A stretch of 64,000 nucleotides of DNA from assembly GCF_012272835.1 (NCBI RefSeq), contig NZ_JAAWWK010000006.1, positions 62,001-126,000 on the forward strand. Reading direction: 5' to 3'. Of this stretch, positions 6,621 through 54,262 are shown piece by piece. Both the position numbers and the translations under genes were made by a program. Below the pieces are notes generated by a model that saw only the letters and a program-made list of their open reading frames with translations, was not told the DNA's origin and searched no databases. Every line of letters starts with the position of its first letter. The stretch's first letter is position 1. The stretch is from Spongiibacter thalassae (lineage in GTDB: Bacteria > Pseudomonadota > Gammaproteobacteria > Pseudomonadales > Spongiibacteraceae).

Positions 6621-8561
6621 TTGAAACACCTGACGCAGGCCTTTGCTGCGTGCCTGACATTGCTATGGGTGCCATTTGCAACGGCGGCCACTGAGCAAGA
6701 GCACGTATTGGTCACCGATCGCCACGCCCCCAAGCGCGACAGCATCAGCGAGGTCGATCTCGCCAATTACACCGGCTTTGTACAGGTTATCGACCGCGAT
6801 CAATTCGCCCACCGCTTCACCGACATTACCGACCTGCTGGACACCCTCCCGGGCATTCAGGTAAAGCAGCTGGGTGGTCTTGGCGGGCTTAGCAGTATTG
6901 CCATCCGCGGCTCCGGCGGCAAGCAGGTGAGCGTTTTCCTCGACGGCTTACTGTTAAACAATCCAGATTCCGGTTCTGCCAGTGTAGGCGACATTCCGAC
7001 GGTACTTATTGACCGCATAGAAGCCTACCCCGACTTCACCCCGGTGCAGCTGGGCAACGCCAACCTTGCCGGGGCGATTAATTTTCGCAGCCGACAATTG
7101 CGCCGCGACGACAGCGGCGCCCGCGTCAGTCTGTCGGCGGGCTCCTTCGACACCCGTCACAGCGAGGTCAGCGGCTGGGGCAACTTTGCTCACTGGGAGG
7201 TCATCGCAGGCTTGAATTACACCGAGGCCGACAACGACTTCCCCGTCGACGACGAGCTGTTTCGCACCGACAGTCGCCGCCGCCAGAACGACGGCTACCG
7301 CCAGCACAGCAGCTTCCTCAAAGTGGGCCGCGACCAGAGCAATGGCCGCCTCAGCGCCCTGCTGCAGCACAGCAAGTCTGAAAAAGAGGTGGCCAGCGCG
7401 CTGAATCAGCAACGGGACAACGCCACCCTCGACAAGGAGTCCCTGCGGGTGCAGGCGGTAAGGGATTACCGCCTGGGCAGTGTAGATCTCGCCCACAGGG
7501 GTTTTGTAACCCGCAATACCACTCAATTCAGCGACGCCAACAGCACTATCGGTCTGGGCGAAGACCGGGTCGAAAGTGAATACGACAGTTTCGGTCTCTA
7601 CAATACTGCACGCTGGCAAGGGCAAAGTCTGGAGTGGGTGGCAGGACTGGAACTGCGCCGCGACAGCATTGAAGTACACGACCTCCTGCGCCAGCGCATG
7701 CTGACCGAAACCCGGCGGGACACCGCCGTGCTGGCACTGGCCAACAATTGGAGTGCCGGTGACAATCTGCTGGTGAGTACCGCTGTGCGCCACTATTTGC
7801 AGGACGACCATATCGACTTCTCGCTCAGCGGCGACAATAGCGACAGCACTCTGGCCGCGTCCAGCGCCCAGCTCGGCGTTCAGTGGCGCCGGAGCTCAAG
7901 CCTGACCTTCAAGGCCAATATTGGTCGCCTGCTGCGCCTGCCCACGCTCACCGAAAATTTCGGCGCCGAGGGGCTGCTTGACGGCAACCCCTCACTTAGT
8001 CAGGAACGGGCCTTCACCGGCGACGCCGGTTTCGATTGGCAGCGCGGCACTCTCACCAGCAGCGCCAGCGTGTTTTACCGCCAGGTCGACGACGCGATTA
8101 TTACCATCTACGACAGCAGGGGTGTTGGCCAGCCGCAAAACATCGGTTCGTCGGTGGTGGCAGGGGTTGAAACCGACCTGGATTGGCGTGCGTTGAAGTG
8201 GCTGACTGTTCGCGCCAGTGCCACCCTGATCGACAGCGAAAACCAATCGAACATTCGCTCGGCAAAGGGCAAGCAACTCCCCGGCATTTACCATCAGAGC
8301 ATTGGCAGCGGCCTTACCCTTAGCCTCGGCCACAGCCGGATTGAGCTTGACTATGTTGTTCACAATGAACTCTTCTATGACCCCGCCAACGCGGTCGAGG
8401 CCGATAGAAAGGAAGAACTGTCCCTGTCGTTCAGCCATTTTTGGCGTCGTGTCACCGTCGATGTGGCAGCCCGCAACCTGCTCGATAAAAACTTCCTTGA
8501 TGCGAATCGCTTTCCCACACCGGGGCGGTCTGTAACCGCCACGCTTACCCTTTCTCTCTGA
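6621..8561 (+). CDS. btuB: TonB-dependent outer-membrane corrinoid receptor, BtuB-like
   Basis: A 646-residue outer-membrane receptor that should import vitamin B12 or related corrinoids with TonB energy. Residues 1 to about 22 form a signal peptide ending in an Ala-rich cleavage site. A TonB-box-like EHVLVTD follows (about 27-33), then the plug domain (DITDLLDTLPGIQVKQ, IAIRGSGGKQVSVFLDGL) and a beta-barrel ending in an aromatic/Leu-rich strand. The start must be TTG at 6621: an in-frame TGA lies just upstream, and GGTGA sits 7 bases before the TTG. The B12 riboswitch directly upstream and the BtuFCD and CobO genes downstream support a corrinoid substrate. Identity as BtuB rests on context plus family; closeness to E. 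coli BtuB is modest. Confidence 0.88.
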   Translation: MKHLTQAFAACLTLLWVPFATAATEQEHVLVTDRHAPKRDSISEVDLANYTGFVQVIDRDQFAHRFTDITDLLDTLPGIQVKQLGGLGGLSSIAIRGSGGKQVSVFLDGLLLNNPDSGSASVGDIPTVLIDRIEAYPDFTPVQLGNANLAGAINFRSRQLRRDDSGARVSLSAGSFDTRHSEVSGWGNFAHWEVIAGLNYTEADNDFPVDDELFRTDSRRRQNDGYRQHSSFLKVGRDQSNGRLSALLQHSKSEKEVASALNQQRDNATLDKESLRVQAVRDYRLGSVDLAHRGFVTRNTTQFSDANSTIGLGEDRVESEYDSFGLYNTARWQGQSLEWVAGLELRRDSIEVHDLLRQRMLTETRRDTAVLALANNWSAGDNLLVSTAVRHYLQDDHIDFSLSGDNSDSTLAASSAQLGVQWRRSSSLTFKANIGRLLRLPTLTENFGAEGLLDGNPSLSQERAFTGDAGFDWQRGTLTSSASVFYRQVDDAIITIYDSRGVGQPQNIGSSVVAGVETDLDWRALKWLTVRASATLIDSENQSNIRSAKGKQLPGIYHQSIGSGLTLSLGHSRIELDYVVHNELFYDPANAVEADRKEELSLSFSHFWRRVTVDVAARNLLDKNFLDANRFPTPGRSVTATLTLSL

Positions 8562-8589: not shown

Positions 8590-9795
8590 ATGAAATCCAA
8601 CCTCCCCCTTAAACTACTTGGAAGTCTTGCCCTGACCTCCCTGCTCGCCGCCTGTGGCGGCAGCGACGGTGGCAGCAGCGCCGCCCCCGTCGTCGGTGCA
8701 AACACAGTGGTTGTGGCAACCGTCGCCGCTGATTTTTCCGGCTCAGATATCCAGCTGGTTGAACTCGGCAGCGAAGTCACCGTCACCAGCGGCGTAGCTG
8801 GCAAGGATCAGTCAGACTTTGGCGCGGCCCGTTTTGGCGAGTTTTTTTACCATATCGGTCGGTTTAATATCGACGAAGTACACAAGCATGGTTTCATCGC
8901 CCCTGGCACCCCGATCTACCAATACACCACCCAGGCGAACGCCGAAGACCCCACCGGCAATGCCCAGCGCATGGCCTTTGTCAGTAACGAAAAAGCCTAC
9001 ATCACCCAATACCGCACCCAGCAGGTGCTGATTGTTAACCCCAGCGCCCAGACTGAAGCGGAATTTATCATCGGTTCGCTGGACCTCAGCGCTTACGCCG
9101 ACGCAGATGCCAATGGCGCACCGGAAGCCTCGGCGGCGATGATTGTCGATGGCAAGCTGTTTGTTGTGTTACAACGGCTGGTGAACTACTCCCCCGCCGA
9201 AGACGGTGTAAGCGCCTATGTCGCCGTGTTTGATACCGCCACCGATACTGAGATCGACACCAATCCCAACGACGAGCCCAGTGCTCCCAAGGGCATTGAG
9301 CTGAGCACCCGCAACCCCGGCAAGCTGGTCTACCGCGACGGCGTTGGCTTGTTCCTGCAATCCATTGGCGACGCCTATGCTTCTTCACGCAATGGCCGCA
9401 CGCCGGGCTACACCGGCGGCATCAGCAAAATTGACACTGAAACCTATAGTGTCGAACTGATAGTCGACGACGGCGACAACGACAATCACCCCTACGGGTT
9501 TATCTCCAATCTCGCCATTGTCGACGCCAACAACGGCTATTTCGTCGGCTATGAAGGCTGGATGAACACCAGCCTGTACCACTTCAATCCCAGCACCGGC
9601 GACGCCACCGCTGTTACCGCTTACGCCAACATCGACATGCGCACCATCGAGGCTGATGCCGCCGGAAACCTGTGGATTGGCATTGCGGATTCCGCCAGCC
9701 CGCGCATCGAAGTGCTCGACGGCCAGCAAAGCCTGCTGCGCACCATCAACCTGATTCAGAACCCCACCGAGATTCTGTTCAGCAAAATGCAGTAA
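8590..9795 (+). CDS. Large lipoprotein in the B12 uptake operon, possible beta-propeller, function unknown
   Basis: A 401-residue predicted lipoprotein. The signal peptide ends in LLAAC, so Cys22 should be lipidated, followed by a Gly/Ser-rich linker (GGSDGGSS). The residue after Cys is Gly, not Asp, so it is not an obvious inner-membrane retention signal. The rest is rich in beta-strand-like stretches alternating with turns (for example SKIDTETYSVELIVDDG, YHFNPSTGDATAVTAY, GNLWIGIADSASPRIEVLD), which suggests a propeller fold, but I recognise no named family. It lies 28 bases after the BtuB-like receptor, under the same riboswitch, and before cobO and btuFCD. The position resembles that of BtuG, the propeller lipoprotein that captures B12 for BtuB in Bacteroides. 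That parallel is inference. Codon use matches its neighbours. Confidence 0.75.
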   Translation: MKSNLPLKLLGSLALTSLLAACGGSDGGSSAAPVVGANTVVVATVAADFSGSDIQLVELGSEVTVTSGVAGKDQSDFGAARFGEFFYHIGRFNIDEVHKHGFIAPGTPIYQYTTQANAEDPTGNAQRMAFVSNEKAYITQYRTQQVLIVNPSAQTEAEFIIGSLDLSAYADADANGAPEASAAMIVDGKLFVVLQRLVNYSPAEDGVSAYVAVFDTATDTEIDTNPNDEPSAPKGIELSTRNPGKLVYRDGVGLFLQSIGDAYASSRNGRTPGYTGGISKIDTETYSVELIVDDGDNDNHPYGFISNLAIVDANNGYFVGYEGWMNTSLYHFNPSTGDATAVTAYANIDMRTIEADAAGNLWIGIADSASPRIEVLDGQQSLLRTINLIQNPTEILFSKMQ

Positions 9796-9820
9796 ACTTG
9801 CCGCTGCCGCTGGCAAGCCT

Positions 9821-9842
9821 TCGGGCTTGCCAGCCATCACCT
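9821..9842 (+). terminator. UUCG-capped hairpin between the lipoprotein and cobO (weak terminator or processing site)
   Basis: TGGCAAGCC (9821-9829) and GGCTTGCCA (9834-9842) form a nine-pair stem closed by a TTCG tetraloop. Only a loose T-rich stretch (CCTTTATTT) follows about ten bases later, so full termination is doubtful. It could reduce read-through or protect the upstream mRNA, giving more receptor and lipoprotein than downstream enzymes. Confidence 0.4.
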
Positions 9843-9868: not shown

Positions 9869-10471
9869 ATGGAATCGAGAGATATTCGCCACAAAAAAGC
9901 CATGGAGCGCCGCAAGGCACTGGTCGATGAGAAAGTCGCCGAAGCGACCACCGAAAAGGGCATTCTCATTGTGCTGACCGGTAACGGCAAAGGGAAATCC
10001 AGCTCGGGTTTTGGCTCGGTGATCCGCTGTCTGGGCCACGGCTACAACGCGGGTATTGTGCAATTTATCAAAGGCACCTGGGACTGCGGTGAACGCAACT
10101 TTATTGAACAGCGTTGTCCGGAAGTGCCCTATCACGTAATGGGCAGCGGATTTACCTGGGAAACCCAAAATCGCGAGCGGGACATCGCCGCCGCCGAACA
10201 AGCCTGGGCAAAAGCTGAAGAATTATTGCGCGACGACAGCCTTCACTTGGTCTTGCTTGACGAATTAACCTACGTCTTGAAATACGGCTGGATCGAGCAA
10301 CAGCGCATTTTCGATGCCATCGCCAACCGCCCCGCAGAAATGAGTGTGATCGTCACCGGCCGCGCGGCGTCAAAAGCATTGCGCGAAATGGCCGACACCG
10401 TCGCCGAAGTCGGCGATGAAAAACACGCTTTCCGCGCCGGTATCAAAGCGCGCAAAGGAGTGGACTGGTAA
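9869..10471 (+). CDS. cobO: Cob(I)yrinic acid a,c-diamide adenosyltransferase (CobO/CobA/BtuR type)
   Basis: A 200-residue cytosolic enzyme that transfers the adenosyl group of ATP to the cobalt of cob(I)alamin or its precursors, making the coenzyme form. The P-loop TGNGKGKSS (37-45) is the hallmark of this family, preceded by the basic N-terminal helix (RHKKAMERRKALVDEK). LVLLDELTYVLKYGW carries the Walker B-like acidic residues, and the C-terminal part ends AFRAGIKARKGVDW as in CobO. The frame is open from 9827, but that start lies inside a hairpin; the ATG at 9869 gives the usual family start. It is followed immediately by btuF. A second, unrelated adenosyltransferase is encoded at 18027. 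Confidence 0.93.
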   Translation: MESRDIRHKKAMERRKALVDEKVAEATTEKGILIVLTGNGKGKSSSGFGSVIRCLGHGYNAGIVQFIKGTWDCGERNFIEQRCPEVPYHVMGSGFTWETQNRERDIAAAEQAWAKAEELLRDDSLHLVLLDELTYVLKYGWIEQQRIFDAIANRPAEMSVIVTGRAASKALREMADTVAEVGDEKHAFRAGIKARKGVDW

Positions 10472-11398
10472 GTGTCCCGAAACAGAAATTATCGTCAGTG
10501 GCGTCCCCTTCGCGCTTCTGCCATTGCACTGCTCGCCACCCTACTCGGGTCCACCGCCCCTCTGTGGGCATTCGAGCAGACCTTTTGCGCCACGGACGAC
10601 CAGCAGCTGAACCTCTGCCTGCCAGCCCCAGCCCAGCGCATTATCGCCCTGTCGCCAGGTATTACCGAGCAGGTCTTTGCCGCCGGCGCGGGGGGCAAGC
10701 TGGTTGCGGCGGTGTCATTCAGCGACTACCCGGAAGAAGCTCGCGAACTACCCCGTGTCGGCGGCTACAACCGCTTCGACCTGGAGGCGATTGTCGCGCT
10801 CAAACCGGATCTGCTGATAGCCTGGAGTGAAGGCAATCCGGCGGAACAGCTCAGTCAGCTGAAGGCCTTGGGGCTGCCGGTGTATCACTCAGACCCCGAT
10901 AGCTTCGACGATATCGCCAGTGCCATCGAACGCATTGGCAAGCTAGCCGGCACCGCAGACGCTGCCAACACCGCCGCGGCTCACTTTCGTCAAGGCATCG
11001 CCGAACTGGCACAACGTTACGCCGACGCCCCCAAGGTGCGGGTATTTCAGCAGATCTGGAACAATCCGCTGATGACGGTAAACAGCGACCATATGATCAG
11101 CAAGGCCACCGAACTCTGCGGCGGCGAGAATATCTTTGCCGACCTGGGCAAGCTGTCGGCGCGAATCGACCTTGAAGCGGTACTGGCAGCCAATCCAGAG
11201 GCCATCATTGCCGGCGGTATGGGCGAGGAAAACCGCGACTGGCTGGACGCCTGGGAGCGCTTCGACGGGCTCACCGCCGTACAGCGGAACAATTTGTTTT
11301 TTGTGCCACCCTCAACCCTGCAGCGGCCCACGCCCCGCCTGCTGGACGGGGCCAGGCTGATGTGCCAGCACCTGGAAACCGCCCGTGCACGCCGCTGA
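10472..11398 (+). CDS. btuF: Periplasmic corrinoid-binding protein of the BtuFCD ABC importer
   Basis: A 308-residue substrate-binding protein of the cluster that includes BtuF and siderophore-binding proteins. A basic N-terminus and hydrophobic core form a signal peptide with cleavage predicted after LWA at residue 33. The mature part has RIIALSPGITEQVFAAGAGG, DYPEEARELPRVGGYN and LEAIVALKPDLLIAW, all close to BtuF family motifs. The GTG at 10472 starts directly after the cobO stop, with AAGGAG 12 bases upstream. It overlaps btuC by 14 bases. The B12 riboswitch and the Cob enzymes around it favour corrinoids over siderophores as substrate. Confidence 0.87.
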   Translation: MSRNRNYRQWRPLRASAIALLATLLGSTAPLWAFEQTFCATDDQQLNLCLPAPAQRIIALSPGITEQVFAAGAGGKLVAAVSFSDYPEEARELPRVGGYNRFDLEAIVALKPDLLIAWSEGNPAEQLSQLKALGLPVYHSDPDSFDDIASAIERIGKLAGTADAANTAAAHFRQGIAELAQRYADAPKVRVFQQIWNNPLMTVNSDHMISKATELCGGENIFADLGKLSARIDLEAVLAANPEAIIAGGMGEENRDWLDAWERFDGLTAVQRNNLFFVPPSTLQRPTPRLLDGARLMCQHLETARARR

Positions 11399-12389
11399 GT
11401 CCATCACACACACCGGCGTATTTCGTCGCGGGCCCTTGCCTCTGCTGCTTCTGCTCGCACTGGCGCTGAGCTCCCTGCTACTGGCCATCCGTGTTGGCAG
11501 CGTGACCATGAGCAGCAGCGACATCTGGGCGGCATTGACCGGCAGCGGATCGTCCCTCCATCAAACGCTGATTATGGATTTGCGCCTGCCCCGGGCGCTG
11601 GCGGCCTTCGCCACCGGCGGCCTGTTGGCCGTGGCGGGCGCGCTGATGCAGGTATTACTGCGCAACCCACTGGCCGACCCTTATATTCTCGGCCTGTCCA
11701 GCGGCGCGGCGGTAGGCGCACTCATGGCGATGATCTTCGGCCTTGGTGCGGCACTGGTCTCCGGGTCGGCGTTTATCGGCGCGGTGGTGTCGGCCACCCT
11801 GGTCTTCAGCCTGGCCAATGGCCGCGGCAGCTGGACACCCACGCGACTGCTGTTAACCGGGGTGATTATCTCCTCCGGCTGGAGCGCATTGGTAACCTTT
11901 ATGCTCGCTGTCGGCCCTACCGACAAACTCCCCGGCATGCTCTACTGGCTAATGGGCGACCTCGCCTATTCCCGCTCGCCCTGGCCCGCACTCACCGTGC
12001 TACTGGCGATTTGCCTGCTGCTGATGCCACTGGGGCGCAGCCTGAACGTGCTGGCCAGAGGCCCGCTGCAAGCGGCCGCACTGGGTGTGCCCGTCAAGCA
12101 GATGGAATGGGGAATTTATATTATCGCCAGTATTCTCACAGCCTTTGCGGTAACCACTGCCGGCAGCATCGGTTTTGTCGGCCTGATTATTCCCCACATG
12201 CTACGCCTGGTGCTCGGCAATGACCAACGGATCATACTCCCGGCAGCCGCTCTGGCGGGCGGTAGCCTGCTGACACTGGCCGACACGCTGGCACGGACGA
12301 TTATCGCCCCCCAACAACTTCCCGCCGGGGTGATTACCGCCATGATCGGCGTGCCTACCTTTTTATATCTGCTGCGGCGGAGCCAGTGA
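11385..12389 (+). CDS. btuC: Corrinoid ABC importer permease (FecCD/BtuC family)
   Basis: A 334-residue inner-membrane permease with about nine to ten hydrophobic segments. The family hallmarks are visible: RLPRALAAFATGGLLAVAGALMQ near residues 66-88, RNPLADPYILGLSSGAA, and GSIGFVGLIIPHMLRLVLG near 257-275, which includes the region that contacts the ATPase. The last part, QLPAGVITAMIGVPTFLYLL, is typical. It starts with GTG at 11385 inside the end of btuF and ends overlapping the start of btuD. Together with those genes it forms a complete importer. Confidence 0.9.
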   Translation: MHAAESITHTGVFRRGPLPLLLLLALALSSLLLAIRVGSVTMSSSDIWAALTGSGSSLHQTLIMDLRLPRALAAFATGGLLAVAGALMQVLLRNPLADPYILGLSSGAAVGALMAMIFGLGAALVSGSAFIGAVVSATLVFSLANGRGSWTPTRLLLTGVIISSGWSALVTFMLAVGPTDKLPGMLYWLMGDLAYSRSPWPALTVLLAICLLLMPLGRSLNVLARGPLQAAALGVPVKQMEWGIYIIASILTAFAVTTAGSIGFVGLIIPHMLRLVLGNDQRIILPAAALAGGSLLTLADTLARTIIAPQQLPAGVITAMIGVPTFLYLLRRSQ

Positions 12390-13171
12390 TGACGACCCTC
12401 AGCGCCCATCAGTTGGTGATCGATATCCCTGGTCGCAGCGACGGCACCGCCCTCAATTTGTCGGTGCAAGCGGGCGATATCTGGGGGGTGCTTGGTCCGA
12501 ATGGCGCAGGGAAGACAACCCTGCTCCATACTCTGGCGGGCCTGCGCCAACCCCGCAGTGGCGAAATCCATCTGGACGGACGCAATATTCATCAGTTGCG
12601 CCGCAAGCAGCTCGCGCAATCGCTGGCGGTGGTCTTTCAGGAACGACAGGACGGCTTTCCCGGCACCGTGCTGGAAACTGCAATGATTGGCCGTCACCCC
12701 TTTCTCGCCCCCTGGGATGTAGAAACCGCCAGCGACCTGCTGCTGGCGCGTCAGTCCCTTGACCTACTGGAATTGGCCCACCTCGAACAGCGCCTCGTCA
12801 GCACCCTGTCCGGCGGTGAAAGACAACGCCTGGCCATCGCCACGGCACTGTGCCAAACCCCGTCGCTGCTCCTCGCCGACGAACCCAGCAACCATCTCGA
12901 CCTGCACCATCAGGTGCAGGTGATGGAGCTGCTGCAGCGCCGCGCGCGGAATGATTGCGGCATATTTCTGTGCTTACACGATCTGAACCTGGCCGCCCGC
13001 TATTGTAATCGGCTCTTGCTGCTCTACCCCGATGGTCGCGCCTGCTGGGGCGCCAAGGAAGACATGCTGTCACTCAGCGCGCTGGAGGCCCTCTACCGCC
13101 AGCCGCTGACACTGATTGAACACGACGGACAACAACTGTTTGTGCCACGCGCCAGCGAGTCCCCCCGCTGA
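12389..13171 (+). CDS. btuD: Corrinoid ABC importer ATPase
   Basis: A 260-residue ATP-binding subunit. Walker A GPNGAGKT is at residues 36-43, the Q-loop is in AVVFQERQDG, the signature LSGGERQR follows, Walker B is LLLADEP, and the H-loop is FLCLHDLNLAARYC. The ATG at 12389 overlaps the btuC stop (TGATG); a GTG three bases earlier is also possible. The protein belongs to the BtuD/FepC/HmuV group; the corrinoid assignment rests on context. Its ATG-ending overlap with bluB shows tight operon packing. Confidence 0.9.
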   Translation: MTTLSAHQLVIDIPGRSDGTALNLSVQAGDIWGVLGPNGAGKTTLLHTLAGLRQPRSGEIHLDGRNIHQLRRKQLAQSLAVVFQERQDGFPGTVLETAMIGRHPFLAPWDVETASDLLLARQSLDLLELAHLEQRLVSTLSGGERQRLAIATALCQTPSLLLADEPSNHLDLHHQVQVMELLQRRARNDCGIFLCLHDLNLAARYCNRLLLLYPDGRACWGAKEDMLSLSALEALYRQPLTLIEHDGQQLFVPRASESPR

Positions 13172-15322: not shown

Positions 15323-15745
15323 ATGAAAAAACTAAGTTTGGTCGCGTTGCTATTGTGCCTGAGCGCATGTAGCAAGCCGATCCCGTTTACCGACTACATC
15401 GTCGAGAATCTGCTGCGCGACAATCTGGAAAACCTGACCCAGCCGCCGCTGTTTGAATTGCGTGAAATCATCGTGGTAGAGAAAACCGACCTGGGTGACC
15501 GCGCCGAGGCCAGCGTCGATGTGGTGCTGTTTTTCCCAGAAAGCTTCGAAACGGTGGTGAAGGCTCAGCAACTGCAGCCGAATAATATGGCCTACAAGCA
15601 ATATCGCGGCAGCTTTGGTGCCTTCACCGCAGGCGAACAACAAACCCACCACGCCCATTACAGCTTTGTGCGTGACGGACGCAAATGGCGTATCAGCAGC
15701 AGCCGGCCACTGGCGGAACCGACAATTCAAAGGGCCGCCGAATAA
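15323..15745 (+). CDS. Small lipoprotein at the end of the B12 operon, function unknown
   Basis: A 140-residue predicted lipoprotein. The signal peptide ends LSACSK with the lipidated Cys at residue 16, and Ser17-Lys18 does not give an inner-membrane retention signal. The mature part looks like a compact alpha+beta domain, with FELREIIVVEKTDLGDRAEASVDVVLFFPE and a C-terminal YSFVRDGRKWRISSSRPL. The latter recalls small DUF4878/NTF2-like lipoproteins with a strand pair ending in K/R-W-R-I, but I cannot assign a family. It begins 21 bases after cobQ, probably co-transcribed, and ends six bases from the convergent cobC. A link to corrinoid handling is only positional. Confidence 0.7.
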   Translation: MKKLSLVALLLCLSACSKPIPFTDYIVENLLRDNLENLTQPPLFELREIIVVEKTDLGDRAEASVDVVLFFPESFETVVKAQQLQPNNMAYKQYRGSFGAFTAGEQQTHHAHYSFVRDGRKWRISSSRPLAEPTIQRAAE

Positions 15746-53870: not shown

Positions 53871-53889
53871 TCTATCATTGAGAGAGGAA

Positions 53890-54262
53890 AAATGAGTCGG
53901 CCTATAAGCCGGGTTCTGTCGTGGACGACCATTCATCTGGGACCTGCGTCACCGCAGACCTCAAGCAGCCTACCCGAATCCACCGCGGGTCGCGGCAAAG
54001 GATTCCTATTTGGCCTTGCTCCAGGTGGGGTTTACCCTGCCACGAACTGTTACCAGTCGCGCGGTGCGCTCTTACCGCACCATTTCAACCTTACCGGCAA
54101 CCGAAGCTGCTTAGGCGGTATATTTTCTGCTGCACTAGCCGTAGGCTCTCGCCCCCCAGGCGTTACCTGGCACCTTACCCTATGGAGCCCGGACTTTCCT
54201 CCCGGCGCCGACAATAGCAAAGCTATTACCAACCACCGAGCGGCCGCCCAGCCGACTCAACT
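53890..54262 (-). ncRNA. rnpB: RNase P RNA (bacterial class A)
   Basis: The catalytic RNA of ribonuclease P. Read on the minus strand, the 5' part has GAGGAAAGTCCGGGCTCC and AGGGTAAGGTGCCAGGTAACGC-type sequence, and the middle has the universally conserved AGAG and GGTAAG elements. The 3' part has ACAGAACCCGGCTTATAGG, which pairs in P4. GAGTCGGC at the 5' end pairs with GCCGACTC at the 3' end (P1). Limits are accurate to a few bases. Placement between rsmI and mraZ is common in Pseudomonas-like bacteria. Confidence 0.96.

Follow-up and report, generated by a model that had tools for sequence, protein, structure and literature searches.

A lipoprotein gene lying directly behind the gene of a BtuB-like receptor in Spongiibacter thalassae raises the question of whether its product captures corrinoids for that receptor in the manner of BtuG. 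The window examined here, a stretch of 64,000 nucleotides, encodes this 401-residue protein from an ATG start at positions 8590-9795 on the forward strand. Our analyses support it as a candidate BtuG-like corrinoid-capture subunit of the adjacent receptor, a reading to which we assign a probability of roughly 0.78.

The locus opens with a cobalamin riboswitch aptamer (RF00174; 6348-6545, forward strand), which cmscan matched completely (model positions 1-189, 97.5 bits, E 4.4e-23). It precedes a BtuB-like TonB-dependent receptor of 646 residues (6621-8561, forward strand, TTG start) with the Pfam domains Plug and TonB_dep_Rec_b-barrel, and only 28 nt separate the receptor stop codon from the lipoprotein start. 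Further downstream on the same strand are genes for the corrinoid adenosyltransferase CobO/BtuR (9869-10471; PF02572 E 6.8e-59, NF004637 above its cut-off), a BtuF-like periplasmic binding protein (10472-11398; PF01497 E 1.4e-29, NF002894 BtuF E 8.7e-55 and below its cut-off), a BtuC-like FecCD permease (11385-12389; PF01032 E 4.1e-87) and a BtuD-like ABC ATPase (12386-13171; named by eye and from its position after btuC). A cobQ-type ORF, named by eye from the ORF list, lies downstream on the same strand, and bluB was found downstream of the lipoprotein gene in the Pfam/NCBIfam scan of the window. The cobO ORF was listed from a TTG at 9827, and the in-frame ATG at 9869 is the more likely start. 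Between the lipoprotein gene and cobO is a GC-rich, perfect 11-bp hairpin with a UUCG loop (9809-9834, forward strand). The 74-nt stretch containing it gave a z-score of -1.82, with 12 of 200 shuffles folding equally well, and a terminator scan found no T-run terminator match at this position. The hairpin may be a candidate partial terminator or mRNA end and, as it stands there without a T-run, cobO may or may not share the riboswitch-lipoprotein transcript. The earlier note had placed the lipoprotein between the B12 receptor and cobO under one cobalamin riboswitch; the gene order and the riboswitch stood, with the qualification that the hairpin intervenes before cobO. As separate observations in the window, a second lipoprotein-like ORF of 140 residues without a Pfam row follows cobQ (15323-15745) and has a relative in the same region of locus L001, and a bacterial RNase P RNA of class A (330.6 bits) lies at 53889-54259 on the reverse strand.

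The N-terminus of the 401-residue protein (MKSNLPLKLLGSLALTSLLAAC22GGS) is a lipoprotein signal peptide (8590-8655, forward strand) with the lipobox LAAC22GG. The Gly at +2 means, by the usual rule, that there is no Asp signal for inner-membrane retention. The gene was single-copy in a whole-genome search. All of its Pfam and NCBIfam rows were sub-threshold (3A, E 0.17; PorZ, E 0.022; LptM, E 0.48), and up to E 1 there was no row for DUF5074 (PF16819), the Pfam family of BtuG, for the YncE model NF052280 in NCBIfam, or for an enzyme family in either database. A phmmer search against PDB sequences likewise returned nothing below E 0.36. The AlphaFold model was nevertheless confident, with pLDDT of at least 87 in each block of ten over residues 31-400, and predicted a beta-propeller spanning residues ~36-399 (8695-9786, forward strand), which bore out the strand-turn periodicity pointed out in the earlier note. 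BtuG ranked first in two structural comparisons (Foldseek and VIA-align) and was the closest fold match, as represented by B. thetaiotaomicron BtuG1-3 (PF16819; PDB 3dsm, 8bai, 8bmy, 8okv, 8blw and 8p97). The VIA-align superpositions ran from model residues 32-37 to 398-401 at 14-21% identity, and the Foldseek TM-scores with BtuG structures were 0.63-0.67.

Other fold matches ranked lower. XusB of B. fragilis, reported as a xenosiderophore-binding surface lipoprotein that works with a TonB-dependent receptor (PMC13142918), stood at Foldseek rank 16, below BtuG, and its ligand differs. BtuK1 of B. theta (9s6c), reported to be a cobalamin-binding lipoprotein (PMC12751083), stood at rank 27 with a TM-score of 0.55 and an rmsd of 7.1. 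The gene of E. coli YncE likewise lies next to a TonB-dependent receptor gene (pqqU, locus L085), but YncE differs from the window protein in its Foldseek rank (31), its pI (9.2 vs 4.25) and its profile alignment (hhalign Prob 5.3 over 57 columns). Propeller enzymes were placed under BtuG by VIA-align, at 7-8% identity. The mature window protein has a calculated pI of 4.25, and the median of 73 precursors of its family is 4.14; acidity does not discriminate, however, and weighs little, since it is shared by the control proteins Pgl (5.06) and BamB (4.72).

Whether the likeness to BtuG extends from fold to ancestry was addressed with an alignment (A1) of the window lipoprotein and 72 of its 232 homologues. 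In these 73 sequences, Tyr169 and Asp294 were invariant (73/73 each), Arg196 was present in 72 and position 200 was aromatic in 64. A full BtuG was taken from a natural B. finegoldii plasmid locus (L082); it matches DUF5074 at E 1.9e-20, and its Trp194, Tyr239, Trp272, Tyr316 and Tyr335 bear the same numbers as in the BtuG2 paper. The BtuG profile was built on 18 sequences and is narrow in range, 17 being alike at 77% or more. Profile-profile comparison of A1 with this 18-row alignment by hhalign gave Prob 96.5 and E 7.7e-10 over 298 columns, and a second BtuG alignment gave Prob 96.2 and E 2e-9, each E-value holding for one comparison; global mode gave Prob 97.8. Under the control setting, Prob was 94.2 against the BtuG profile, 69.6 against a single BtuG sequence and 0.2 against the reversed BtuG profile. 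Since no lactonase or YVTN propellers were found in the window's own genome, E. coli propellers served as controls; these scored far lower (YncE, Prob 5.7; BamB, 2.1; Pgl, 1.1), as did reversed sequences (Prob at most 2.9). Two single Persicobacter proteins of the DUF5074 type, which themselves adjoin TonB-dependent receptors, matched A1 hardly above the control propellers (Prob 12.3 and 11.7), indicating that the signal between A1 and BtuG needs a profile.

Direct sequence searches gave weaker signals. BLASTP between single sequences of the window lipoprotein and BtuG found a 28-residue match (E 6e-5 for one comparison), and a PDB search with the A1 profile picked up BtuG chains (E 0.003-0.013), chiefly over one blade (FVSNEKAYITQ...IVNPSA vs FLSDEKAYVTQ...IINPKT), with sensor-kinase propellers outscoring BtuG (E 0.00016). 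In the remote alignment, the corrinoid-contact residues of BtuG did not pair off individually: Trp194 falls near A1 column 200, the aromatic position noted above, and Tyr239 was matched by eye to column 263, which is not uniform, with Phe in 19 and Tyr in 8 of the 73 sequences. Taken as sequence evidence, the homology to BtuG, visible with profile-profile comparison only, points to shared ancestry, and the suggestion in the earlier note of a possibly independent example is therefore disfavoured. With BtuG the window protein shares its lipoprotein nature, a btuB-type receptor gene as neighbour, control by a cobalamin riboswitch and significant profile-profile similarity. Unlike BtuG, it is proteobacterial rather than from Bacteroidetes, shares only 14-21% identity in the structural alignments and falls outside DUF5074, and some of its relatives have C-terminal tails in place of the lipobox. 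The gene order also varies, with the receptor first in the window and in Persicobacter, and BtuG first in B. finegoldii. Because the lipoprotein does not reach DUF5074, whereas true BtuG matches it at 1.9e-20, the window protein is described here as belonging to a BtuG-like sister family and is not filed as BtuG.

The association with B12 genes was then considered across relatives. When each species was represented by one genome, a scan with one peptide pattern found 111 encoded relatives, the best 80 of which formed the locus set. The lipoprotein gene was almost always beside a BtuB-like receptor and a cobalamin riboswitch. Neither of two findings that the earlier note named as grounds for rejection, a fold other than a propeller and homologues mostly unlinked to B12 genes, was thus observed. 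In 77 of the 80 loci its ORF lay within 230 nt of a receptor-related ORF or overlapped it as listed; the receptor was upstream on the same strand in 75 of these and the genes were convergent in the other two (L007 and L019), while the remaining three loci (L022, L036 and L043) begin near a contig edge, close to the lipoprotein gene. The riboswitch count was limited to the 69 of 77 loci in which the sequence ahead of the receptor extended for 350 nt or more, being shorter in the other eight. A stringent two-motif B12-box scan missed most riboswitches, and covariance-model hits from a scan of all 80 loci were used instead. These placed a riboswitch on the right strand upstream of the receptor in 64 of 69 loci, a count that may include a few false ones because hits were placed in loci by coordinates only and direct rescanning exposed chance placements inside short contigs (it recovered neither the site listed at 780-962 in L056 nor the 'others' listed for L013). 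The same rescan confirmed the riboswitch in each of the seven tagged loci that it covered (L003, L007, L013, L019, L044, L056 and L074). Among the five loci counted as lacking one, L002 had no Rfam hit and a B12-box pair upstream; L009 had a riboswitch ahead of a btuFCD-btuB-lipoprotein run; L065 had a sub-threshold hit of 29.8 bits ahead of btuD-btuC-cobO-btuF-btuB-lipoprotein and none at the gathering score; L068 had a sub-threshold hit only, downstream of the lipoprotein gene; and a direct scan of L038 found no cobalamin riboswitch. In the two convergent loci the lipoprotein gene has its own riboswitch (102.5 bits in L007 and 105.8 bits in L019) in addition to that of the receptor (80.1 and 69.1 bits), which ties the lipoprotein itself, and not just its neighbour, to B12 control.

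Further samples gave a similar picture. When the class was sampled evenly, the receptor was adjacent in all seven member genomes besides the window's own and the riboswitch was present in six, the seventh locus being at a contig edge; two of these loci (L093 and L095) are apparent repeats of L029 and L073, so that five of the seven are new. Within the genus, the same three of 18 genomes carry both the lipoprotein (E <= 1e-10) and the receptor (E <= 1e-60), the other 15 carry neither, and all 18 contain cobalamin riboswitches. Mirror-tree correlations were 0.73-0.91 for all gene pairs and, being high for each pair, are weak evidence. BtuF and BtuC relatives were often near the lipoprotein gene in the relatives' loci, and btuFCD, cobO and cobQ neighbours recurred.

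The receptor itself is worded as BtuB-like because its scores fall below the curated BtuB cut-offs. TIGR01779 (TonB-B12) was its best NCBIfam model (E 5.9e-35, 120.9 bits vs a cut-off of 599.7), and PRK10641, the E. coli BtuB model, gave 79.9 bits vs a cut-off of 836. Five receptors from other loci also scored below cut-off, the top model being TIGR01779 for four of them and that of E. coli BtuB for the fifth. At E 1e-15, neither TIGR01779 nor PRK10641 matched the receptor that accompanies true BtuG in B. finegoldii. Among PDB sequences, the window receptor was closest to the TonB-linked receptor 9gbc, followed by B. theta BtuB3 (8p97 and 8p98) and E. coli BtuB. Elsewhere, a second cobalamin riboswitch of the window genome (locus L088, G000:C8, 288291-288531) precedes another TonB-dependent receptor, identified by eye, whose partial sequence did not match the window's BtuB at E 1e-5. 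Of two more cobalamin riboswitches in this genome, one (L090) stands ahead of the gene of an uncharacterised membrane protein and, next, a cobB-like gene, and the other (L091) ahead of a cobN-like gene, all named by eye.

The proposed role follows from these features. Given the riboswitch class, low intracellular corrinoid would permit expression of btuB and the lipoprotein gene. The lipobox and Gly at +2 suggest that the protein would be lipidated at Cys22 and delivered to the outer membrane, where it might be displayed on the cell surface. By analogy with BtuB-BtuG, the propeller could form a lid over BtuB, its central cavity binding corrinoids and passing them to the receptor, after which BtuF, BtuCD and CobO would presumably import and adenosylate them. 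The orientation at the membrane is where the leading alternative arises. Outer-membrane lipoproteins of gammaproteobacteria are placed in the inner leaflet by default, a placement that the lipobox and Gly at +2 fit, and such a protein could equally face the periplasm. There it might act in the same B12 pathway, taking corrinoid from BtuB for BtuF or helping to assemble or stabilise the receptor, and the BtuF and BtuC relatives so often found nearby agree with this. However, the nearest folds are those of surface BtuG proteins, the hhalign result with BamB (Prob 2.1) argues against a BamB-like role, and the CFI motif (18 of 119 homologues) and a choice-of-anchor U domain (5e-22) suggest surface anchoring in the family, although not in close relatives of the window protein. 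We thus regard a periplasmic role as unlikely, if the least improbable of the alternatives. Ranking just behind it, and also unlikely, is an ordinary propeller independently recruited to BtuB, an analogue whose likeness to BtuG would reflect a common fold only; the near-full-length BtuG profile match, well over YncE, Pgl, BamB and the reversed controls, and the first place of BtuG in both structural comparisons speak against it.

The same receptor could also import some ligand other than corrinoids as such, perhaps a cobalt chelate or part of a cobamide, and the propeller would then bind that. That the receptor is only a remote relative of BtuB and that siderophore-binding XusB is among the fold matches would suit this idea, but the riboswitch and the btuFCD, cobO and cobQ neighbours recur and BtuG structures outrank XusB, making it quite improbable. 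Very improbable, finally, is a propeller enzyme that alters corrinoids before uptake, given the rank of propeller enzymes under BtuG and the absence of a Pfam or NCBIfam enzyme family at E up to 1. Corrinoid capture at the BtuB-like receptor remains the preferred reading.

Proteobacterial BtuG relatives would bear on how BtuG is understood. In a 2018 study, BtuG is reported as exclusive to Bacteroidetes, with no homologues outside that group by the BlastP criteria used, and its origin is discussed in terms of gut competition (PMC6143338). Within the part of the open-access literature that was searched, no later paper described a BtuG-like protein from any other group. Systems of this type are thus already known, and their proteobacterial occurrence, in divergent form, appears to be new. 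We lean towards the view that BtuB is served, in Gammaproteobacteria as well as in deltaproteobacterial lineages, by BtuG-homologous lids that make up a large family so far unrecognised, in part held by C-terminal sorting tails and in some members joined to an uncharacterised second domain of ~220 residues, and that the design is old or widely transferred rather than a speciality of gut Bacteroidetes. If so, these homologues would broaden the gut-competition explanation of BtuG, and a family that lacks a Pfam model would gain a likely function. With one receptor and one lid in the same three genomes of a genus sampled by 18, they would also offer a simple system in which to study the contribution of the lid to a BtuB. 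As E. coli BtuB works without a lid, comparing receptors with and without lids would directly test the reason for capture subunits in a part of the BtuB proteins.

The distribution of the family is wide but patchy. The protein search returned the 232 homologues at E <= 1e-3, and the names among the 120 listed included Spongiibacter, Marinobacter, Algiphilus and Desulfobacterales. By record titles, genera with relatives also included Alcanivorax, Colwellia and Pseudoalteromonas, which, like Marinobacter, are mostly marine. A member was present in 8 of 143 genomes in the even sample of the class, including the window's own, and in 3 of 21 genomes of the family Spongiibacteraceae, all three within the genus, which makes up 18 of the 21. 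The gammaproteobacterial occurrence proposed in the earlier note thus holds, although not exclusively, since deltaproteobacterial (Desulfobacterales) genomes encode relatives as well; in a lipoprotein tree of 79 rows, deltaproteobacterial and gammaproteobacterial rows were intermixed. Viral contigs yielded nothing related to A1 or to a 52-residue segment of BtuG, and searches of plasmids found no relative of the window lipoprotein.

Anchoring appears to differ among members. A crude lipobox pattern was found in 62 of the 119 listed homologues with a start residue, 4 of the 62 having Asp at +2, which favours the inner membrane in E. coli. A CFI motif within the last 35 residues occurred in 18 of the 119, one of them (P0087) named from a Desulfosarcinaceae bin, with no overlap with the lipobox pattern; seven of these 18 continue beyond the motif for 20 residues or more, in a stretch that by eye begins hydrophobic and turns basic. 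The model NF041763 (CFI-box putative sorting motif) was matched below its cut-off by the CFI carriers P0043 and P0068 and by P0048; in P0081 a choice-of-anchor U domain was recognised (E 5e-22). Judged from the names of these motifs, the C-terminal tail suggests a second route by which the same propeller is fixed on the cell surface.

Three homologues (P0038, P0052 and P0057) carry a domain of ~220 residues behind the propeller, a fusion that parallels that of BtuG1 and BtuH. The domain had no Pfam match, no useful PDB sequence match (best E 0.17) and no plasmid match, and in the structure prediction of P0052 pLDDT was <50 over most of the C-terminal part. Comparison with BtuH, BtuJ and BtuL-type proteins of B. 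finegoldii gave no sign of kinship (Prob 0.1, 2.7 and 10.6). In L066, where a riboswitch was placed by coordinates, the domain occurs as a separate gene directly downstream of the receptor and lipoprotein genes (L066:11013-11807, E 1.1e-84), and its product has a PEP-CTERM-like tail just under cut-off. Weak similarity (Prob 16.7 and 36.5; BLASTP E 0.002) linked the domain to short genes in Persicobacter plasmids (L083:3094-3912 and L084:88-888), which lie ahead of a TonB-dependent receptor gene and a DUF5074-type gene.
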